A DNA stretch of 64,000 nt from Patulibacter minatonensis DSM 18081 (GTDB lineage Bacteria > Actinomycetota > Thermoleophilia > Solirubrobacterales > Solirubrobacteraceae). Shown piece by piece: positions 1,587-62,633 of the stretch. Each line of letters begins with the position of its first letter. Position 1 is the stretch's first letter. Position numbers and translations under genes: made by a program. The notes beneath the pieces were generated by a model that saw only the letters and a program-made list of their open reading frames with translations, had not been told where the DNA came from and did no database searches. Location of the stretch: assembly GCF_000519325.1 (NCBI RefSeq), contig NZ_KI912613.1, forward strand, positions 1,837,252 through 1,901,251, written 5' to 3'.

Positions 1587-3008
1587 ATGAGCACCACCGA
1601 CCTCACCACCCCGGACCTCCTGATCGACGGCGCGGCCGTCGGCACCGACGACCGACTCGACGTCCTCAACCCGGCGACCGGCGCGGTCGTCGGGACGTCC
1701 CCCGTCTGCACGCGCGGGCAGCTCGACGACGCCTTCGCCGCAGCCGAACGAGCCGCGCCGCCCTGGCGCGGGTCGCTCGACGAACGCCGCGCCGCACTGG
1801 GGGCGGCCGCCGCCGCGCTCGCCGGCGCGGTCGACGAGATCGCGCCGCTGCTCGTCGCCGAGCAGGGCAAGCCGATGCGTGAGGCCCGCCTCGAGGTCAA
1901 GGCCGCCGCCTACTGGCTCGGGTACTACGCCGGGACGGACCTGGCTCGCGAGACCCTCCGCGACGACGCGAAGGCGTTCGTCGAGGTCCGTCGCCGGCCC
2001 GCCGGCGTCGTCGCGGCGATCACGCCGTGGAACTTCCCGCTGCTCCTGGCCTGCTGGAAGATCGGCCCCGCGCTGGCCGCGGGATGCACGATGGTGCTGA
2101 AGCCGTCGCCCTACACGCCGCTCTCGACGCTGCGCATGGGCGAGGTCCTCGACGGGGTGCTCCCGGACGGCGTGCTCAACGTCGTCGCCGGGCGCGACGA
2201 GCTCGGTGCCTGGATGACCGGGCACCCTGCCGTCCGGAAGATCACGTTCACGGGCTCGGTGGCGACCGGGAAGCGCGTGATGTCGGCCGCGGCCGACGAC
2301 CTCAAGCGCGTCACCCTCGAGCTGGGCGGCAACGACGCGGCGATCCTCCTCGACGACGTGGACCCGGGTGCCATCGCGAAGCAGCTGTTCTGGTCGGCGT
2401 TCCTGAACGCCGGGCAGCTCTGCTGCGCCGTCAAGCGCGTGTACGTCCCGTCGGGGCTGCGCGGCGAGCTGGTCGACGCCCTGACGGCGGAGGCCGAGCG
2501 CGTCGTCGTCGGGGACGGCGCCGTGCGCGAGACCACCATGGGGCCGCTGAACAACCGGCCCCAGCTCGACCACGTCCGTGCGGTCGTCGACGAGGCGGTG
2601 CGTGCCGGCGCGCGCTCCACGAACGCCGGCGCGGCGCTTCCCGACGGCGGTCACTTCTTCGCCCCGACGATCCTCGACGGCGCCGACGACGCGATGCGCG
2701 TCGTCGCGGACGAGCAGTTCGGGCCCGCGCTGCCCGTGATCGCCTACGACGACGTCGAGGACGCACTGGCCCGCGCGAACGCCGGGACGTTCGGCCTGAG
2801 CGGCTCGGTCTGGGGCCAGGACGAGGACCGCGCGGCCGACCTCGCCGAGCGCCTCGAATGCGGCACCGCCTGGGTCAACACGCACTACGCCAACGACCCC
2901 GGGCAGCCGTTCGGTGGCCTGAAGTGGAGTGGCGTCGGCGTGGAGAACGGCCGATGGGGCGTCGAGACCTTCACCGATCTCCAGGTCGTGCATCGGGCGC
3001 GCGGCTGA
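1587..3008 (+). CDS. NAD(P)-dependent aldehyde dehydrogenase
   Basis: A 473-residue ALDH-superfamily enzyme that oxidises an aldehyde to the acid. Visible signatures are the cofactor-domain motif ITPWNFPLLL, the FTGSVATGKRV segment, the general-base Glu in VTLELGGNDAAILL, and the nucleophilic Cys in NAGQLCCAVKRVYV. The C-terminal segment PFGGLKWSGVGVENG is also typical. The ATG at 1587 follows the thiolase stop by 26 bases with a GGA-rich stretch before it, so co-transcription is likely. The true substrate is unknown. In context it could oxidise fatty aldehydes made by the nearby GMC oxidoreductases, but that is inference. Confidence 0.92.
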   Translation: MSTTDLTTPDLLIDGAAVGTDDRLDVLNPATGAVVGTSPVCTRGQLDDAFAAAERAAPPWRGSLDERRAALGAAAAALAGAVDEIAPLLVAEQGKPMREARLEVKAAAYWLGYYAGTDLARETLRDDAKAFVEVRRRPAGVVAAITPWNFPLLLACWKIGPALAAGCTMVLKPSPYTPLSTLRMGEVLDGVLPDGVLNVVAGRDELGAWMTGHPAVRKITFTGSVATGKRVMSAAADDLKRVTLELGGNDAAILLDDVDPGAIAKQLFWSAFLNAGQLCCAVKRVYVPSGLRGELVDALTAEAERVVVGDGAVRETTMGPLNNRPQLDHVRAVVDEAVRAGARSTNAGAALPDGGHFFAPTILDGADDAMRVVADEQFGPALPVIAYDDVEDALARANAGTFGLSGSVWGQDEDRAADLAERLECGTAWVNTHYANDPGQPFGGLKWSGVGVENGRWGVETFTDLQVVHRARG

Positions 3009-3181
3009 CCCGACCCCCGGCGCCGCCCTGGGGCCGGCATCGGAGAGCGGCGGAAGCGCGAGACTCATCGATCTCGAGCCGCGTGTCATACGTGAACGAT
3101 CACTCCTTAATTCCAGCCGGCTTGGACACTAGGGTCCGGCTAGGACGGTCCCGATGTCGATGACGGGCCCAGATCACGGCA

Positions 3182-3249
3182 TTGAGATAAGAACCGATCG
3201 GTAACTAAAAGCTTGATTCGGTGCTCCGGCGTTGGTACGTTCGGACGTG
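3182..3249 (+). promoter_or_regulatory. promoter of the 7Fe ferredoxin gene with an upstream palindromic operator
   Basis: TTGATT at 3213-3218 and TACGTT at 3236-3241 are spaced by 17 bases and read toward the ferredoxin. The ATG lies 8 bases after the -10 box, so the transcript is probably leaderless. Just upstream, 3191-3205 reads GAACCGATCGGTAAC, whose core ACCGATCGGT is a perfect palindrome. A near-identical 15-mer lies inside the GMC oxidoreductase promoter at 8647-8661. A TetR-type repressor site is a reasonable guess. Confidence 0.6.
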
Positions 3250-3507
3250 ATGGCCTACGTGATCACCGCGCCGTGCATCGGCACCAAGGACGCCAGCTGC
3301 ACCGAGGTCTGTCCCGTCGACTGCATCCACCCGACGCCGGACGAGCCCGGGTACGAGGAGGCCGAGCAGCTGTTCATCGATCCCGACGAGTGCATCGACT
3401 GCGACGCCTGCGTCGAGGCCTGCCCGGTCGACGCCGTGTTCGGTGAGGACCAGGTCCCCGACGAGGCGACGGCGTTCGTCGCGAAGAACGCGGCGTTCTT
3501 CGCCTGA
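3250..3507 (+). CDS. fdxA: 7Fe ferredoxin (3Fe-4S/4Fe-4S, FdxA type)
   Basis: An 85-residue soluble electron carrier. The cysteine pattern is that of the FdxA family: an N-terminal PC...C...C cluster in PCIGTKDASCTEVCPVDC, followed by DECIDCDACVEACPVDAVF. The usual order in this family is one 3Fe-4S and one 4Fe-4S cluster. I chose ATG 3250 (MAYVITAPC) because it matches the family N-terminus and sits directly behind a -10 box. A GTG 18 bases upstream would only add six residues. The gene is followed after 32 bases by an ABC ATPase. The redox partner is not evident. Confidence 0.93.
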   Translation: MAYVITAPCIGTKDASCTEVCPVDCIHPTPDEPGYEEAEQLFIDPDECIDCDACVEACPVDAVFGEDQVPDEATAFVAKNAAFFA

Positions 3508-3539
3508 CGGCGAGCACCGCCCCGAGAGACGAGCCCGAG

Positions 3540-4694
3540 ATGCCTTCGATCCCCCGCCGCGACGACGCCCGGCCCACCCGGGAAGCGGTGCCCGACGACA
3601 CCGGGCTCTTCGTCGATCCCGCGGACACCGTCGCCCGGCGCGACGACGCCGACGCCACCGGAGGCGCCGAGCGCGACGGGGTCGAGCACGTCGTCGGCGC
3701 TCCGCGTGCCGGCGCCGCCGATCTCGTGCCGTCGGTCCCCGATTCCCAGCCCGACGGCCCCCCGACGGAGACCGACGACTGGGACTTCGAGGACGAGCCC
3801 CGCGGTCAGGCGGCCGGCGCGGGCGTCGTCGAGGTCGTGGGCGAGCGCGCCGAGGACCAGGACGACGAGTACCGATGGCACACCGGGATCCGCCGGGAGA
3901 CCGGCCAGATCGACGCCGTCGAGTTCGTCGACACGCACAAGGCGTTCGGCCGGAGCAAGATCCTCCGGGGTCTCAACATGGGCCTGCCGGAGGGCATGAT
4001 CTCGATGATCCTCGGCCCGTCGGGCACCGGGAAGTCGGTCTGCATCAAGCACATGGTCGGACTGCTCTACCCGGACGACGGCGATGTCCTGGTGCACGGC
4101 GAATCGGTGCCGTACATGGGCCTCGACGAGCTGCTGCAGATGCGCCAGAAGTTCGGCGTGCTGTTCCAGGACGGAGCGCTCTTCGGCTCCATGGACATCT
4201 ACGACAACACGGCGTTCCCGCTGCGCCAGCACACCGACAAGTCCGAGGACGAGATCCGGGGCATCGTCGACCGTCGGCTCGAGGAGGTCGGCCTCGGCGC
4301 CGCCCGCGGGAAGTTCCCGAACGAGCTCTCCGGCGGCATGCGCAAGCGCGCCGGGTTCGCGCGGGCCCTCGTGCTGGACCCCACGATCGTCCTCTTCGAC
4401 GAGCCGGACTCCGGCCTCGACCCCGTCCGCACCGCCCTCCTCGGCGAGCTGATCAAGCAGATCCACGAGGAGACGATGGAGGACGCCGAGGACCAGGGCT
4501 GGGAGCACAAGCCCGCGTTCACCCTGATCACCCACGACATCATGACCGCGCGTCGCGTCTCGCAGTTCATCAACGTCGTGTGGAAGGGGCGCATCGTCGA
4601 GTCCGGTCCGGCGGAGGAGCTGTTCGAGTCGGAGAACGCGTTCGTCAACCAGTTCCTGGCCGGTGCGTCCCGCGGACCCCTGGGGATGAACTGA
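3540..4694 (+). CDS. Mce/Mla-type lipid ABC transporter ATPase with long acidic N-terminal extension
   Basis: A 384-residue protein. Residues from about 125 on are a complete ABC ATPase: a Walker A at about 159-166 (GPSGTGKS), the signature LSGGMRKRAGFARAL near 263, Walker B and D-loop IVLFDEPDSGLDP near 284, and an H-loop His in LITHDIMTARR. The KSVCIKHMVGLL and GVLFQDGALFGSMDIYDN segments are those of the MlaF/Mkl family, which powers phospholipid or sterol transport by MCE systems. The first ~120 residues are acidic, rich in Asp, Ala and Pro, and probably disordered. That is unusual for the family. No permease or MCE gene lies nearby, so the partners must be encoded elsewhere. Confidence 0.9.
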   Translation: MPSIPRRDDARPTREAVPDDTGLFVDPADTVARRDDADATGGAERDGVEHVVGAPRAGAADLVPSVPDSQPDGPPTETDDWDFEDEPRGQAAGAGVVEVVGERAEDQDDEYRWHTGIRRETGQIDAVEFVDTHKAFGRSKILRGLNMGLPEGMISMILGPSGTGKSVCIKHMVGLLYPDDGDVLVHGESVPYMGLDELLQMRQKFGVLFQDGALFGSMDIYDNTAFPLRQHTDKSEDEIRGIVDRRLEEVGLGAARGKFPNELSGGMRKRAGFARALVLDPTIVLFDEPDSGLDPVRTALLGELIKQIHEETMEDAEDQGWEHKPAFTLITHDIMTARRVSQFINVVWKGRIVESGPAEELFESENAFVNQFLAGASRGPLGMN

Positions 4695-9637: not shown

Positions 9638-10077
9638 ATGTGGTCACGGGTTGGCTACCCGGTGTACGCGCGATAAGACTCGAAACGACGACCCGGCAGC
9701 CCAGCTCGCAGTCGGTTCGTAGGGTCGGCATGCCTGTGACGAGTTCGGTGTCAGAACCCAACGGCGGCTCTGACGGTCGCCTGGATGCTCCGAGCCCGCC
9801 ACCGTTGCAAAGGGCGAAGCGTCGCTACGCCACAGGGCCGGTGTCTCCGGTTGAAAGCGCGGGGGGAGCGTCCGAGCACTCAGGCACGAAGGCCCGGACA
9901 GGTACCTGGGCTTCGACTGTCGCATTCCTCGCGAGAGATGGAGAGGCGCGGTTCCGTCGCATTCCTTGCGGAAGATGAAGAGGCGCGGTTCCATCGACAC
10001 CTCACGAATGGGCCGACCCCCTCGTGCGATGAGCCCTGGATTCAAGATCCGCTGGGCATCGTTGTCCGTCTGGCCGC
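9638..10077. other. gene-poor left end of the island
   Basis: 440 bases between the tRNA fragment and the WS/DGAT stop. The frames are partly open but encode nothing I recognise on either strand, and I see no integrase remnant. The only structure is a two-copy tandem repeat at 9921-9994. Confidence 0.6.
9921..9994. repeat. two-copy 37-bp tandem repeat
   Basis: Unit one is 9921-9957 and unit two 9958-9994, with 32 of 37 positions identical. Each unit starts CGCATTCCT and contains GAGGCGCGGTTCC. It lies 84 bases beyond the stop of WS/DGAT. Function unknown; it may be a duplication scar. Confidence 0.7.
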
Positions 10078-11475
10078 TTACTCGCGCAGCGTGGCCCGGC
10101 TCCCGGTCGGGGCGAGGGCCAGGATCTCGTCGAACGCCTCGACGAGGCAGCGGCGGAACGTCTCCGGCTCGGCGATCGCGGCCGCGTCGTGGTTGATCGT
10201 CACGCAGCACGTCGAGCCGTGGCTCATGAGGACGATCATCGCCGCGACGCCGGGGAGCGGCCCGAAGCCGTAGAGCCGGAGCACCTGGGCTCCGGCGACG
10301 AAGACCTCGGCGTCGCGGATCCCGGGGATGTTGCTGGCCTGGACGTCGCTGGTGGACGTCATCTGCCGGACGGCGCGCGAGAGGACCGGGGTCGGCAGGC
10401 GGGCGAGCGCGGGGGAGAGCCCGTCGAGGGCCTCGATCGCGGGCTCCTTGCGGATCGCCCGGACGACCGACCGGATCGCGAGCATCCGCTCCGTGGGGTC
10501 GGCGATGCCGGTCGGGGCGCTCAGGCGCGCGGCCGCGAAGCGGTTGCCGCCCGACGTCTCCTCCGGTCGGCGGATGGAGATCGGGATCGAGAGGGGAAGT
10601 TCGTCGACGGGGCGCCCGAGCGCCTCGTGGTACCGGGCGAAGGCGCCGGAGACCGCGGCGAGGTAGGCGTCGTTCAGCGATGCGCCGGCCTGCTTGGCGG
10701 CCGCGGAGAGCCCGGGGAGCGGGACGTCGAGGGCGATGAACCGCCACGTGCCGCTGCGCTCGGCCAGCTCGGGCGACGGGGTCGCCGAGACGGGCCCGAG
10801 GACGCGCCGGAGCGACGCCACGTAGCCGACCGTCCGGGCGGGGTGCAGCGCCGCCCGGCCGGTGCCGCGGAGCAGACCGACCCCGCGGCCGACCAGGGCG
10901 AGCTCGCGGCGCACCGCCGACCGGAGCACGTTCGGGCGCCGCGGCTCCGGCGGGGCGGGCTGGGGCTTGCCCGCGTTGTGCTCGCGCTGCCGGGAGTGCA
11001 GGCCGGCGAACAGCTGCACGCCCGCCGCACCGTCGAGCGTGGCGTGGTGCATCTTCAGGAGGTACGCCGCCCGGCCGCCGCGGAGCCCGGTCAGGAGCAG
11101 GGCCTCCCAGGGCGGGCGCGCCGGCTCGAAGGCGGTCTGCGCGACGGTCGCGGCGCGGTCGAGGACGTCCTGCCACGTGCCGTCCGGCATCTCCGCGCGG
11201 AAGACGTGGTGGCGTAGGTCGAAGTCCCGGTCGTCGACCCAGGCCGGGTAGCCGAGCGGCCCGTCGACGACCCGCTGCCGGAACCGCGGCACCATCCGGC
11301 TGCCCCAGTCGTGGGCGGCCGAGAAGCGCTCCCACTCCGGGGCGCGGTCGAGCTCCTCGACGGCCATGATCGTGGAGCTGAGCGCGGGGTCGGCCTCGGC
11401 CTTCCACATCACCGCCTCGATGGCGTTGAACCCCGGGCTGCCCCAGTCCATCGGCGTGTCGGTGCGATCGGTCAT
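10078..11475 (-). CDS. WS/DGAT wax ester synthase / diacylglycerol acyltransferase (island copy)
   Basis: 465 residues, the normal length for bacterial WS/DGAT. These enzymes move an acyl group from acyl-CoA to a fatty alcohol (wax ester) or diacylglycerol (triacylglycerol). The catalytic motif HHxxxDG is present as MHHATLDGAAG near residue 142. Other family blocks are the N-terminal FNAIEAVMWKAEAD, SRMVPRFRQRV, SLNDAYLAAVSGAF and DVQASNIPGI, ending with CCVTINHDAAA. The start ATG 11475 has AGGGAG about 12 bases upstream. A clear paralogue lies on the chromosome at 59630-61039. Next to CYP153 and acyl-CoA synthetase it can store alkane-derived acyl groups as neutral lipid. Confidence 0.92.
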   Translation of the reverse strand: MTDRTDTPMDWGSPGFNAIEAVMWKAEADPALSSTIMAVEELDRAPEWERFSAAHDWGSRMVPRFRQRVVDGPLGYPAWVDDRDFDLRHHVFRAEMPDGTWQDVLDRAATVAQTAFEPARPPWEALLLTGLRGGRAAYLLKMHHATLDGAAGVQLFAGLHSRQREHNAGKPQPAPPEPRRPNVLRSAVRRELALVGRGVGLLRGTGRAALHPARTVGYVASLRRVLGPVSATPSPELAERSGTWRFIALDVPLPGLSAAAKQAGASLNDAYLAAVSGAFARYHEALGRPVDELPLSIPISIRRPEETSGGNRFAAARLSAPTGIADPTERMLAIRSVVRAIRKEPAIEALDGLSPALARLPTPVLSRAVRQMTSTSDVQASNIPGIRDAEVFVAGAQVLRLYGFGPLPGVAAMIVLMSHGSTCCVTINHDAAAIAEPETFRRCLVEAFDEILALAPTGSRATLRE

Positions 11476-11754
11476 GCGGGTCGGGCTCCCTCTAGTGAGG
11501 TTCGTCGTTCGGATCGCGAGCGTGTGGCTGTTCCGAACGGCGGGGTCCACGCGGGGCAGCTCGTCGAGCGCGATCGCCCTTCGACGAACATGGGACGGTT
11601 GACGCGTCCCACGTCGGTCTGCCGTCGCCTCGTGATCGGTGTCTCCGACGCAGTCGACGCCCGCAGCGTCGAGGGGTCCCCGGGGGAAGGGAGCACCGTG
11701 TCCGGCGCGCTGGCTTGATCGTTGCGCGCCGGTAGCGCGTCAGACGGCACGTGC

Positions 11755-23210: not shown

Positions 23211-24221
23211 ATGACCACACCGATCAACGTGGTCGTCCTGGGCGGAGGCTCTTGGGCGACCGCAGTCGCCTCTCTCGCCGCGACGAACACGCCGACCACA
23301 CTTTGGGCGCGGGACGCTGACGTCGCCCGCGACATCGACCACAACCACCGCAACACGCGGTTCCTCGAAGACCGACCGCTCACCGAAAACCTGCGGGCGA
23401 CCGACGACCTCGCGGCCGCGGTCTCGGATGCCGACGTTCTCGTCATGGGCGTCCCGTCGCAGGCGCTCCGCGAGGTCGCCGGGCTCGCAGCCCCGCATGT
23501 GCGCCCATGGGTGCCGGTGCTGTCGCTCTCGAAGGGCATCGAGGTCGGCACCCGCCTGCGCCCGACCCAGATCATCGGCTCCGTCCTCCCGGGACACCCG
23601 GTAGGGGTGCTCGCCGGCCCGAACCTCGCCCGAGAAATCCTCGACGGCAAGGCCGCCGCGTCCGTCGTCGCGACGCCCGACACCGAGGTTGCCAAGGCGT
23701 TGCAACCGTTGTTCTCCACGCCGCTGTTCCGGGTCTACCGCAATGCCGACGTCGTCGGGAGCGAGCTCGGTGGCGCGTTGAAGAACGTCATCGCGATCGC
23801 CAGCGGCATGGCCGACGGCCTGAGCGTCGGAGACAACACCCGAGCCATGGTGGTGACCCGTGGCCTGGCGGAGCTCACGCGGCTCGGTGTGGCACTTGGC
23901 GGCGACCCCCTGACGTTCACGGGTCTGACGGGTCTCGGCGACCTTCTCGCGACGTGCTCCAGCCAACTCTCCCGCAACCGGCGGGTCGGCGAAGAGCTCG
24001 GTCGCGGCAAGACGATCGAGGAGATCCTCGAGGGAATGAATCAGGTCGCTGAGGGCGTGAAGAGCGTGCGCACCGTCCTCGAGTTGGCCGCGATCCACGA
24101 CGTCTCGATGCCGATCGCGGAGGAGGTCGACGCCGTGGTCAACGAAGGACGGACGGCGCGGGATGCCTACCGCGGACTCCGCGCCGAGGTGGCGCAGAGC
24201 GAACGGCATGAGGTCGCCTAG
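23211..24221 (+). CDS. gpsA: NAD(P)-dependent glycerol-3-phosphate dehydrogenase (island copy)
   Basis: 336 residues, full GpsA length. The enzyme reduces dihydroxyacetone phosphate to sn-glycerol-3-phosphate for phospholipid and triacylglycerol synthesis. The Rossmann motif is [18 protein letters not shown]. The family blocks [35 protein letters not shown] with the preceding catalytic Lys (GGALKN), and [14 protein letters not shown] follow. ATG 23211 overlaps no gene but follows the HAD remnant by 3 bases. The chromosomal lipid operon near 61 kb has only an internally deleted gpsA, so this copy may supply G3P for WS/DGAT-based storage. Other gpsA copies may exist outside the window. Confidence 0.94.
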
Positions 24222-57999: not shown

Positions 58000-58803
58000 C
58001 TAGAGCGTCTTCCGCAGGTACGCCGAGACGTCGGCCAGGACCTCGTCCTGGTTCGTCTCGTTGAAGATCTCGTGGCGGGCGCCGGGGTACGACTTCTGCT
58101 CGAGGTTGCTCAGACCGAGGCCCTCCATCGCCGCCTTCGAGATCTCGTACGGCGCGAGGGGGTCCTCCTCGCCGTGCAGGTAGAGCGTCGGGACGTCGCC
58201 GATCGGGTCGGCGGCGGCGATGACCTCCACCGCGGTCTTCAGGGACAGCAGCGTCGGGCGGATCAGCGGACCGTGGTAGATCAGCGGATCGGCGGCGTAG
58301 GCCTCGCCGACGGCGTCGTCGCGCGAGAGCATGCCCGGATCGATCGGCACCTCGGGGATCGGGTCCATGTCGAGCAGCGCGAAGATGCCCGGGTTGCCGC
58401 CGACGACGGGGCCGGAGAGGACCCAGGCGTCGGCCGGCGTCAGCCCGCGCTGCATGGCGCGGGTCGTGATCAGCCCGCCCATCGAGTGGCCGAGCGCGAC
58501 GACGGGCACGCCGGAGAACTCCTCGCGCGCCGCGGCGAAGACCGTCGCGTAGTCGTCGACGAGGACCTCGAGGTCCTCGATCAGCCCGGGCGTCCCGTCG
58601 GACAGGCCGTGTGCCTGGTGGTCCGGCGCGACGACGACGTAGCCGTCGCCGTTCAGGTGCTTGGCGACGTGGTCGTAGCGGGCGGCGTGCTCGCCGATGC
58701 CGTGGGCCAGCACCACGAGGCCCCGGACGTCGCCGTCCGGGGTCCAGCGGTGCACCACGATCTTCCCGTTGGTGCCGGTGGTGTCGGTCGTCTCGTACGT
58801 CAT
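58000..58803 (-). CDS. monoacylglycerol-lipase-like alpha/beta hydrolase
   Basis: 267 residues. The N-terminal block VLAHGIGEHAARYDHVAKHL and the nucleophile elbow ALGHSMGGLITTR near residue 106 match bacterial monoglyceride lipases. Asp in YLHGEEDPLAPY and His in PGARHEIFNE complete the triad. It releases glycerol and fatty acid from monoacylglycerol. Its ATG overlaps the stop of the upstream hydrolase (ATGA). It is the last gene of the neutral-lipid operon. Confidence 0.9.
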   Translation of the reverse strand: MTYETTDTTGTNGKIVVHRWTPDGDVRGLVVLAHGIGEHAARYDHVAKHLNGDGYVVVAPDHQAHGLSDGTPGLIEDLEVLVDDYATVFAAAREEFSGVPVVALGHSMGGLITTRAMQRGLTPADAWVLSGPVVGGNPGIFALLDMDPIPEVPIDPGMLSRDDAVGEAYAADPLIYHGPLIRPTLLSLKTAVEVIAAADPIGDVPTLYLHGEEDPLAPYEISKAAMEGLGLSNLEQKSYPGARHEIFNETNQDEVLADVSAYLRKTL

Positions 58804-59633
58804 GTGGTGGCGGCCTTCCTCTTCTCGTCGACGCGGCGCGTCGTGGTCAGGATCGTGTGGGCGACGAGTGCGGGGTCGTCGAGCATCGGCACGTGCCCGC
58901 AGCCCGGCAGGCGCATGAGCTCGACGGGCCCGATGTTCTCGAGCAGCGGCCGGCCGTAGCGCCCGAAGGGCAGCACGCGGTCGCGGTCGGCCCAGCCGAT
59001 GGTGATCGGGTAGTCGGCGTCGGTCTCGCGCGGCGGCAGCGGCCGGTCGTGCACGATCCAGTCGAGGAACCCGTCGACGATCGAGCAGGCGCGGGCGTCC
59101 TCGAGCAGGTCGCGCGCGTCCTCGTACGACACGCGGTCGCCGCGCTCCGCGACGGTGCGCAGGCCCATGCGACGGGCCCAGGCCTGCTTCAGCAGGCGGT
59201 CCGAGAGGCCCGGGGTGCGGTGGGCCATCGCCACCGACTGCCGCATCATCTTGACGACGCGGTCGAGCTCGCGGCGCCCGTTCCAGCCGCCGGCCGGGGA
59301 GACCGCGACGACCGAGAGCGCCCGGCCGCGCCGGCCCAGCTCGAGCGACAGCCAGCCGCCGAGGGAGTTGCCGGCGATGTGCGCCTTCTCGATGCCCTGC
59401 TCGTCGAACTGGCGCTCCATGTCGTCGGCGATGGAGTGGATCGAGATCTCGTCGTCCGGTCCTGGGTGGACGCCGCCGGCGTGCCCGAGGAGCGACGGCG
59501 CGAAGACGTCGTGCTCCTCCTCGAGGGACGGCAGCAGGTGCCGCCAGACCCGCCAGGATCCCGTGAACCCGTGCAGGATCACGAGCGGCGACCCCTCGCC
59601 GCCGCGGTGGAACGGGGGGATCCCGTCGCTCAT
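58800..59633 (-). CDS. alpha/beta hydrolase of the neutral-lipid operon
   Basis: 277 residues. The oxyanion block is LVILHGFTGSWRVWRHLLPS, the nucleophile is in IAGNSLGGWLSLELGRRG, the acid in IGWADRDRVLPFG and the His in LPGCGHVPMLDDP. Start and stop both overlap neighbours by four bases (ATGA at 59630-59633 and 58800-58803). An esterase or lipase acting on acylglycerols or wax esters is the likely role; exact substrate unknown. Confidence 0.88.
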   Translation of the reverse strand: MSDGIPPFHRGGEGSPLVILHGFTGSWRVWRHLLPSLEEEHDVFAPSLLGHAGGVHPGPDDEISIHSIADDMERQFDEQGIEKAHIAGNSLGGWLSLELGRRGRALSVVAVSPAGGWNGRRELDRVVKMMRQSVAMAHRTPGLSDRLLKQAWARRMGLRTVAERGDRVSYEDARDLLEDARACSIVDGFLDWIVHDRPLPPRETDADYPITIGWADRDRVLPFGRYGRPLLENIGPVELMRLPGCGHVPMLDDPALVAHTILTTTRRVDEKRKAATT

Positions 59634-61039
59634 CGGCGGACCTCGGCCCGGGCGTCGGTGCCGCCGAGGGCCAGGACCTCGTCGAACGCCTCCGCGAGAC
59701 ATCGGCGGAGGGTCTCGGGCTCGGCGATCGCGGCCTCGTCGTGGTTGACCGTGACGCAGCAGGTCTCCCAGTGGCTGACGAGCACGATCATCGCCGCGCA
59801 CCCGGGCAACGGACCGAACGCGTAGAACCGCAGGGCCTTGGCCCCGGCGATGAAGACGTCCTCGTCCGGGATCCCGGGGATGTTGCTGACCTGGACGTCG
59901 CTGCCGGCGGCGACCTGGGCCACGAGGCGCGACAGGAGCGGGCCGGGCAGGCGGGCGAGCACGGGCGCGACGCTGTCGATCGCGTCCAGCGCGACCTCCT
60001 TGCGCAGCGCACCGACGACCGCGCCGACCGCGTGCATCCGCTCGGCCGGGTCCGCGATCGTCAGCGGCCCGGCGAGCCGGGCGCCCGCGAAACGCGACGC
60101 GGTGCTCGCATCGCCGGGCTTCGGGATCGCGATCGGCAGCGCGATCGGCAGCGACTCGATCGGCGTCCCCGTGGCCTCGTGGTACCGGTGGAAGCCGCCG
60201 AGGACGGCGGCGAGGTACGCGTCGTTCAGGGTGGCGTCGGCCGCCCGGGCGGCCGCCCGGAGTCCGGGAAGGGGCAGGTCGAGCGCGAAGAACCGCCAGT
60301 CGCCGCTGCGGTTGGCCAGGGCCGGCGACGGCGGGGCGGCGACCGGGCCGAGAACCCGCCGCAGGGACCGCACGTACCGGGCGCTCTCGAGGACGGTGCG
60401 GTCCGGGCGCAGCGCCTTGTGGCCCATGCCGGGGAGCCGCATGATCCCGCGCGTGAGGGTAGCGGTGTCGCGCCGGAACGCGGTCACCAGGGCGCTGGTG
60501 CGCGCCACGGGGAGCGGCAGCGGCTGCGGCTTGTCCCGGGTGGGCTCCCGCTTGCGCGAGTGCATCTTGCCGAACAGCTGCATCCCCGACCGGCCGTCGA
60601 GGATCGCGTGGTGCATCTTCAGGACGTACGCGGCGCGCCCGTCCTGCAGGCCCGTGATCAGGGTCGCCTCCCACGGCGCGCGGTCGCGGTCGAACGGGGC
60701 CTGGGCGATCGCCGCGACGCGGTCCATGACGTCCTGCCAGGTGCCCCCGTCGAGGTCGGAGCGGAACACGTGGTGGCGCAGCTCGAACCGGGCGTCGGTG
60801 ACCCACGCCGGATAGCCGAGCCGCCCGACGTCCACCCGCTGGCGGAACCGCGGGACCATCCGGCTGCCCCACTCGTGCGTGGACACGAAGCGCGTCCACT
60901 CCGGGGCCACGTCGAGCTCCTCGACCGCGATCACGGTCGAGTGCAGCAGCGGATCGGCCTCGGCCCGCCAGAGCACGGCCTCCATCGCGTTGAAGTCCGA
61001 GAGCCCCCAGTCCGGTGGCGTGTCGTTCGTGGTGCTCAT
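59630..61039 (-). CDS. WS/DGAT wax ester synthase / diacylglycerol acyltransferase (chromosomal copy)
   Basis: 469 residues. The catalytic motif is KMHHAILDGRSGMQ near residue 142. It is paralogous to the island enzyme over the whole length: FNAMEAVLWRAEADP, SRMVPRFRQRV, LNDAYLAAVLGGFHRYHEA, DVQVSNIPGIPDEDVFIAGA and CCVTVNHDEAA all have close counterparts. The ATG overlaps the stop of the gpsA remnant (ATGA). It makes triacylglycerol or wax ester and sits with two hydrolases and an acyltransferase fusion, forming a storage and turnover unit. Confidence 0.93.
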   Translation of the reverse strand: MSTTNDTPPDWGLSDFNAMEAVLWRAEADPLLHSTVIAVEELDVAPEWTRFVSTHEWGSRMVPRFRQRVDVGRLGYPAWVTDARFELRHHVFRSDLDGGTWQDVMDRVAAIAQAPFDRDRAPWEATLITGLQDGRAAYVLKMHHAILDGRSGMQLFGKMHSRKREPTRDKPQPLPLPVARTSALVTAFRRDTATLTRGIMRLPGMGHKALRPDRTVLESARYVRSLRRVLGPVAAPPSPALANRSGDWRFFALDLPLPGLRAAARAADATLNDAYLAAVLGGFHRYHEATGTPIESLPIALPIAIPKPGDASTASRFAGARLAGPLTIADPAERMHAVGAVVGALRKEVALDAIDSVAPVLARLPGPLLSRLVAQVAAGSDVQVSNIPGIPDEDVFIAGAKALRFYAFGPLPGCAAMIVLVSHWETCCVTVNHDEAAIAEPETLRRCLAEAFDEVLALGGTDARAEVRR

Positions 61040-61161
61040 GCGACGGCGTGCCTCTCGCTCTCGGGGGCGCTGCGGCCGAGGCCGCGGCAGGGATCCGCGG
61101 AGCCGGTCGTGGTGCCCCGGGAGCCCGCCCCGAGGACGGCGACGCGCCCGATCCGGTTCAC
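61036..61161 (-). pseudogene. gpsA: internally deleted gpsA remnant
   Basis: A 41-codon frame from GTG 61161, which overlaps the HAD-PlsC stop (GTGA), to a TGA that overlaps the WS/DGAT start (ATGA). The beginning VNRIGRVAVLGAGSRGTT is the GpsA nucleotide-binding start. The end CRGL...SERHAVA aligns with YRGL...SERHEVA, the end of the island GpsA. Roughly 295 codons between them are missing without breaking frame or coupling. It cannot be an active dehydrogenase. It may now serve only to couple translation. Confidence 0.75.
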
Positions 61162-62633
61162 GCGCGGTCCCCGACCGGCAGGCTCACGTGCGCGGAGGCG
61201 GGCCAGTGGTCGAGGGCGTCCTGCATCAGGTCGCGGACCTCGTCGCGGTGGTCGCCGACGGTCTCGGGACGCCAGCCGGCGGTGTCGACGGGCGGGAGGA
61301 CGATCGCCTCGACGATCCCGGGCCGGATGACCTGCGCACCGCGCCACTGCACCTGGTCGATGCCGCGGAAGACGATCGGGACGACCGGGACCTCGGCCTG
61401 CATCGCGATGTGGAACGGCCCCTTCTTGAACGGCGCCATCCGCGGCGTCGGGGTGCGCGTGCCCTCGGGGGAGACGACGACGGACGTCCCCTCCTTCAGC
61501 CGCTGCACCAGCGGCTGCATCTTCTTCTGCGCCGCCTCGCGGTCGTTGCGGTCGATCAACGCGATGCCGGCGAGCTGGAAGAGCTGGCCGAACATCGGGA
61601 CGTTCTTGGCCTCGGCCTTCGCCACCCCGGTGAAGTCCTGGCGCAGCAGCTTGGCGACGACGATCGTGTCGATCTTGCTGCTGTGGTTGAAGACGAACAG
61701 GCACGGGCGCGAGTCCCACAGGTGCTCGGCGCCCTTCAGCACCCGCACGTCGACGCCGGCGGCGGCGAGGCTGACGTCGGCCCCGACCCCGAAGGCGATG
61801 TCGAGGAACGACCGCCTCGAGCGACGCGCGAGGCCGATGCCGCCGGCGACGCCCATCGCGCCGGCGAAGCTGCCGTAGAACGCGGCGGTCCGGACGGCGT
61901 CCTTGATCGTCGCGCGCGGCGTCGGGTCGACGCAGTCGAGGACCGGCCAGCCCTCGCGGGCGGCGGCGCGCCGGAGGTCGTCGTCCGGGGCGATCGCGGC
62001 GGACGTCGCGCACGCCAGGAGCATCGGGACGTCCTCGCCGCCGTTGGAGTAGCCGAAGGTGTCGTCCATGTCGCAGCCGAGCTGCTTGGCCAGCCCGACG
62101 ATGCGCGCCGCCTTCTCGGGGCCCCACACCGGGTCGCCCTCGGTGCGGCCGGTCAGGAGCCCGTCCTCGCCGACCTGCACCGCGGTGCACAGCACGTGGT
62201 CGAACTCGAGCGCCTTGGCGATCGGGGTGGTCTGGAACGGCAGCGCCGACGACGCGAGGACGAGCGTGTGGCCCATCCGGCGGTGCGTCTCGAGGATCTC
62301 GTACGTCTCGCGGCGCAGGCGGCCCGCGGTCTCGTGCTTGAACAGCGACGCGCCGGTGGCGTAGAGCTCGGCCTCGGAGAGGCCCTCCCACCGAGCGAGC
62401 GACGAGTTCAGGAAGGCGATGAACGACTCGGCGTCCTTCAGGCCCTTGCGGGCGGCCTGGACGAGGGAGGCGATCTCGGCGGGCCCCATCTGCCGGTTCT
62501 TCAGGCGGTCGCGGTAGAAGTCCGCGGCGGAGAAGCCGTCGATCAGGGTGCCGTCGTAGTCGAAGACGGCCATGACGGAGGGCCCGCGCGGGGCGGCCTC
62601 GATGCGTTCGACGAGCTCAGCGGTGGTCGTCAC
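61158..62633 (-). CDS. HAD-IB phosphatase / 1-acylglycerol-3-phosphate acyltransferase fusion
   Basis: 491 residues in two domains. The first half is a SerB-like HAD hydrolase with the nucleophile in VMAVFDYDGTLIDGFSA. The second half is a PlsC acyltransferase with the HX4D motif in FVFNHSSKIDTIV near residue 315 and the substrate motif VSPEGTRTPTPRM near 388. Such fusions make phosphatidate and can dephosphorylate it toward diacylglycerol. That supplies WS/DGAT downstream. First gene of a five-frame overlapping operon. Confidence 0.92.
   Translation of the reverse strand: MTTTAELVERIEAAPRGPSVMAVFDYDGTLIDGFSAADFYRDRLKNRQMGPAEIASLVQAARKGLKDAESFIAFLNSSLARWEGLSEAELYATGASLFKHETAGRLRRETYEILETHRRMGHTLVLASSALPFQTTPIAKALEFDHVLCTAVQVGEDGLLTGRTEGDPVWGPEKAARIVGLAKQLGCDMDDTFGYSNGGEDVPMLLACATSAAIAPDDDLRRAAAREGWPVLDCVDPTPRATIKDAVRTAAFYGSFAGAMGVAGGIGLARRSRRSFLDIAFGVGADVSLAAAGVDVRVLKGAEHLWDSRPCLFVFNHSSKIDTIVVAKLLRQDFTGVAKAEAKNVPMFGQLFQLAGIALIDRNDREAAQKKMQPLVQRLKEGTSVVVSPEGTRTPTPRMAPFKKGPFHIAMQAEVPVVPIVFRGIDQVQWRGAQVIRPGIVEAIVLPPVDTAGWRPETVGDHRDEVRDLMQDALDHWPASAHVSLPVGDRA

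Follow-up and report, generated by a model that had tools for sequence, protein, structure and literature searches.

A 41-codon gpsA remnant overlaps the neighbouring acyltransferase and WS/DGAT genes in Patulibacter minatonensis

Results

Gene organization of the operon

The window, the whole 64,000-nucleotide stretch analysed here, is C1:1837252-1901251 of a single-contig genome of 5.52 Mb. Its minus strand carries a chain of five frames in which each successive pair overlaps by 4 nt, and the junctions in order are GTGA, ATGA, ATGA and ATGA. The chain begins with a fusion of a HAD phosphatase and a 1-acylglycerol-3-phosphate acyltransferase (61158..62633, 491 aa; Pfam HAD 3.8e-26, Acyltransferase 1.7e-29). 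It is followed by a frame of only 41 codons (61036..61161), translated as VNRIGRVAVLGAGSRGTTTGSADPCRGLGRSAPESERHAVA and a stop, and by a wax ester synthase/diacylglycerol acyltransferase, WS/DGAT (59630..61039, 469 aa; WS_DGAT_cat 8.2e-41). An alpha/beta hydrolase (58800..59633; Abhydrolase_6 1.5e-20) overlaps the WS/DGAT gene at ATGA, and a serine hydrolase resembling monoacylglycerol lipases (58000..58803; Hydrolase_4 8.7e-53) overlaps the alpha/beta hydrolase in the same manner. An earlier note on this DNA had described the short frame as a gpsA gene reduced in size and still coupled on both sides. What it observed held up in all particulars. Both overlaps are indeed intact: the GTGA at 61158..61161 joins the acyltransferase stop to the start of the short frame, and the ATGA at 61036..61039 joins its stop to the WS/DGAT start.

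The short frame derives from both termini of gpsA

Only one other genome of the genus, G085, was found to contain this operon, and its HAD-acyltransferase and WS/DGAT genes are 77% and 72% identical to those of the window. In G085 a GpsA start (VNRIEQVAVLGAGSWGTTIASIAATN...) comes directly after the acyltransferase gene and overlaps it in the same way; 140 codons of this gpsA are visible before the contig ends. A second contig opens inside a GpsA end (...EAYRGLRNTAPESERHPVA and stop), which overlaps the WS/DGAT gene at ATGA. With the same neighbours on both sides, the edges of the gap read GTGAACCGGATCG... at the start and ...PESERHPVA with the stop at the end, and the WS/DGAT begins with ATGAGCACCACC. 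We infer that the operon gpsA of G085 is intact, although this genome is a 75%-complete draft in which the gene is split over two contigs and about 133 middle codons are unseen. In the acyltransferase tree the window pairs with G085 with a support of 100.

The 41-codon frame aligns without gaps to this gene. Codons 1-21 (61099..61161; VNRIGRVAVLGAGSRGTTTGS) fall on GpsA codons 1-21, with 16 of 21 amino acids identical, and codons 22-41 with the stop (61036..61098; ADPCRGLGRSAPESERHAVA) fall on its last 20 codons and stop, with 14 identical columns out of 21, stop counted. The proposed retention of the GpsA N-terminus and the clean in-frame internal deletion are thereby supported, and the missing middle amounts to the claimed 295 codons (336 - 41). 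The similarity of the C-terminus to the tail of the island GpsA, reported as 9 of 17 residues, was reproduced against that gene, an intact accessory gpsA of 336 aa on the plus strand of the window (23211..24221; NAD_Gly3P_dh_N 1.1e-42, NAD_Gly3P_dh_C 5e-54). The earlier note had also allowed for a short ORF with no gpsA ancestor or for ends unlike GpsA; neither was found, as the relative carries gpsA at this place and both ends match it.

When the frame was compared with 20,000 codon-shuffled versions of itself, the anchored-end score against the G085 gpsA was 132, and the best shuffle reached 48. Against the island gpsA the score was 72, with a best shuffle of 45. The island gene was therefore rejected as the source of the short frame, as the G085 gene fits much better; it is also disfavoured by its pairing with a twin at C1:5018321 in a tree group of their own. 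A Pfam search with the 41-residue peptide returned no family at E<=10, so the evidence for ancestry is the positional orthologue and not a profile. The comparison firmly supports the 41-codon ORF as the joined termini of a gpsA gene, from which about 295 codons have been lost and to which nothing was visibly added. At a GC content of 73.5% short open frames are common, and the frame could in principle be a chance ORF or an assembly artefact without a gpsA ancestor. We give this almost no credence, since the shuffle test, the positional orthologue in G085 and strain-specific substitutions on both sides of the junction all contradict it. The sequence GGATCC at the junction was not accepted as a trace of engineering, because strain-specific substitutions surround it.

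Loss of GpsA function

W15 and A20 are invariant in all 17 intact operon-type GpsAs, and in the ten that share the tail, position 24 is always A and position 25 is Y or F. The stub carries W15R, A20G, A24P and Y25C, and G085 keeps W, A, A and a Y/F-type residue at these four positions. The changes at GpsA-invariant positions all lie within codons 15-25 (61087..61119), around the nominal junction at 61098/61099; the ones at codons 19-24 may be due in part to the imprecisely placed breakpoint, and the alignment is clearer at W15R and Y25C. Changes at such invariant or nearly invariant positions argue that the stub is not an assembly error. Judged from these residues, GpsA constraint no longer acts on the stub, which has drifted since GpsA function was lost. 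With 295 codons missing and no Pfam match, neither GpsA domain is present, and W15R and A20G alter the invariant GxGSWGT nucleotide-binding motif. The predicted peptide can have no dehydrogenase activity.

Whether the stub might encode a functional new small protein was considered from its substitution pattern. Its Nei-Gojobori dN/dS against G085 is 0.28, a value from a frame too short to reveal constraint, and those of the flanking genes are 0.35 and 0.37. A value near that of the flanking genes is expected if most of the divergence is older than the deletion. The low dN/dS and an open frame with start and stop would fit a new protein, but the 41 codons consist only of two GpsA ends, the peptide lacks a Pfam match, no relative has the stub and invariant residues are altered. 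We regard a new protein as very unlikely.

Other gpsA genes in the genome

Besides the stub, the genome has three gpsA genes. The copy at C1:1190012 is of a type found across the genus and was taken as the housekeeping gene. The other two (window 23211-24221 and C1:5018321-5019328) are accessory copies with 92% protein and 85.5% DNA identity; the pair was not found in the other members of the genus that were searched, and its similarity suggests duplication or spread within the genome. The claim that the enzyme had become dispensable in the operon is thus backed by redundancy. These copies are present, and they may have let the operon gpsA be deleted.

State of gpsA across the order

Eight further loci of the order have a full-length gpsA of 336 codons between the same two genes, and the tail motif RGL...E.H.VA is conserved in the operon gpsA of its more distant members. 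Among 17 acyltransferase loci of the order, these eight have the full gene, one has the split gene of G085, three lack a gpsA at this position, four have other layouts, and the window has the only stub. A second gpsA stub was sought at all 17 loci, which comprise every order-level acyltransferase homologue at E<=1e-100, and none was found besides the window. The status of gpsA changes at least six times on the acyltransferase tree; gpsA has therefore been gained or lost repeatedly.

In one locus (L008, genome G097; 2925-3743) the acyltransferase gene directly overlaps an alpha/beta hydrolase and WS/DGAT is on the opposite strand, so the gene order of the operon is not fixed. WS/DGAT and acyltransferase are convergent in L161, and a second locus of the window's own genome, at 5.02 Mb (L065), has WS/DGAT upstream of the acyltransferase. 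In the GpsA tree, the operon GpsA of G085 (L006 2970-3389 and L036 2911-3098) has a long branch of 0.63, which might mean that constraint had already relaxed when the window lineage underwent the deletion, or might just reflect the missing middle.

Junctions between the acyltransferase and WS/DGAT genes

Where the two genes are adjacent without gpsA, they overlap by 4 nt in 12 cases, by 1 nt in three and by 8-29 nt in ten, and in ten they are fused into a single protein of about 950 codons; gaps occur in three cases, all in Pseudomonadota, and one case is unclear. At loci with gpsA, the junction before WS/DGAT is a 4-nt overlap in seven, a 1-nt gap in one and a gap of 14-163 nt in ten. Start codons were chosen mechanically in these counts. 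By them, actinobacteria without gpsA at this position as a rule keep the acyltransferase and WS/DGAT closely linked.

In both alternative frames the stub tail is open through to the end of WS/DGAT, and only the in-frame product stops at the WS/DGAT start. An out-of-frame deletion would therefore send ribosomes across that start, and one of the two out-of-frame readings would yield a fusion with WS/DGAT. The Shine-Dalgarno-like energy upstream of WS/DGAT is -5.8 kcal/mol, which lies within the null range (null lower quartile -5.8); in G085 it is -2.9. In native gene pairs, reinitiation requires an overlap or a very short gap and falls steeply with distance; almost none is left at a gap of 38 nt, and the final 15 nt of upstream coding sequence are enough for it (PMC10666635). 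If the stub were untranslated, about 120 nt would separate the HAD-acyltransferase from WS/DGAT. From the frame analysis, the unremarkable Shine-Dalgarno energy, the distance dependence and this gap, a relay is the most likely mode. The stub has the spacing of a relay ORF, -4 nt to both neighbours (GTGA and ATGA). The anatomy of the locus and published work on termination-reinitiation suggest that the stub is probably translated and acts as such a relay.

Discussion

Our data indicate with high probability that the stub is the remnant of an operon gpsA, reduced by a single in-frame deletion after the split from G085 while the enzyme was redundant, and that it now probably serves as a relay only. 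The window lineage would first have split from G085. A single in-frame deletion within gpsA, about 885 nt long, would then have brought codon ~21 next to the last 20 codons; the deletion is evident from the comparison, except for its single-step nature and its exact breakpoint, which could shift by a few codons, and its dating and ancestral state are read from one close relative. The operon copy would have been redundant beside the housekeeping gpsA and the two accessory copies, though the causal role of these genes is our reading. In the present operon, a ribosome finishing the HAD-acyltransferase at GTGA would restart on the stub, and the same ribosome would end the stub at ATGA and restart on WS/DGAT. 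The ends that were kept contain the start, the stop and both 4-nt overlaps, so that a short relay is probably all that the stub now provides. We read the locus as ordinary operon decay with a neat outcome that preserves coupling.

The earlier note had gone further and suggested that selection kept WS/DGAT translated. Its basis, the gpsA ancestry, the in-frame deletion, the overlaps and the redundancy, stands; selection itself does not follow from it, as chance fits about equally well. If the frame was kept by selection, out-of-frame variants would have been lost, WS/DGAT would depend on reinitiation and the stub would have been recruited or maintained as a dedicated ribosome relay. This would agree with the two alternative frames that cross the WS/DGAT start without a stop, the apparent lack of a strong Shine-Dalgarno site before WS/DGAT and a frame that has remained open despite changed GpsA-invariant residues. 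It would also agree with the actinobacterial operons without gpsA, almost all of which overlap (1-29 nt) or fuse the two genes, and with the restriction of gaps without gpsA to Pseudomonadota. However, a single event has a prior of 1/3 of being in frame, which caps the likelihood ratio at 3, and the end overlaps survive any internal deletion by default. In neutral simulations the frame stayed open in about 69-93% of cases after 3-12 random substitutions (69-76% at 12 changes, and 44-58% at 29). Tight coupling is also not universal, as some gpsA-bearing members of the family have a gap of 27-73 nt before WS/DGAT. We therefore consider maintenance by selection rather doubtful.

The deletion may instead have left a passive scar, in frame by chance and neutral, with a decaying stub whose coupling lasts only because the ends have not yet been hit. 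We give this an even chance. The altered GpsA-invariant positions, which hint at no new function, and the ease with which neutral simulation produces an open frame are in line with it, and other lineages without any gpsA between the genes indicate that full loss is tolerated. The dN/dS of the stub, which is not above that of the flanking genes, speaks against a passive scar, although most of the divergence may predate the deletion. Given the prior of 1/3, the automatic retention of the overlaps and the 69-93% of open frames, chance accounts for the locus about equally well. It is possible, though unproven, that the in-frame outcome is owed to selection and not to chance.

The stub shares its place, its start and tail sequence and its overlaps with operon-type gpsA, the gene of NAD(P)-dependent glycerol-3-phosphate dehydrogenase (PF01210/PF07479), but lacks 295 of the 336 codons and has no catalytic part. 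In the Kennedy-pathway operon atf9-plsB-plsC of Rhodococcus and mycobacteria, PlsC is an acyltransferase-HAD fusion and, as in the window, the fusion gene adjoins WS/DGAT (PMC4850399); similar clusters appear in PMC10351704. The description of that operon mentions no gpsA between the genes, whereas the window includes two hydrolases as well as the gpsA stub. Mycobacterial interspersed repetitive units (MIRU) are short ORFs inserted at start codons and coupled with a spacing of -4 nt (review PMC12548453). Like the stub, a MIRU is a short ORF without a known product that overlaps the gene behind it by 4 nt and could relay ribosomes. MIRU are inserted mobile repeats, whereas the stub is a resident gene that shrank. 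Termination-reinitiation at ATGA and GTGA overlaps (PMC10666635, PMC6728339) has the geometry that the stub shows on both sides; the published cases considered here couple full genes, whereas the stub would couple as a remnant of 41 codons. Among the papers searched, none reported a gene remnant retained as a coupling ORF, and MIRU were the nearest natural precedent.

The locus presents a natural case of gene loss within a chain of overlapping genes, seen midway. Three states can be recognized: gpsA present in G085, the 41-codon stub in the window genome, and no gpsA, with overlap or fusion, in other actinobacteria. If the stub frame were found to control WS/DGAT output, this would provide direct evidence for an influence of translational coupling on which deletions persist in operons; for now the locus is a single event whose value is chiefly illustrative.

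At least five WS/DGAT-like genes of the same branch occur in the genome, and two paralogues (window 10075-11521 and G000:C1:2587077-2588459) have 87% DNA identity. HAD-acyltransferase-WS/DGAT polypeptides of about 950 codons occur in Geodermatophilus and some Pseudonocardia (L092, L101, L102, L104, L107, L110, L112, L118, L119 and L130), and the two that were scanned each contain HAD, Acyltransferase and WS_DGAT domains.
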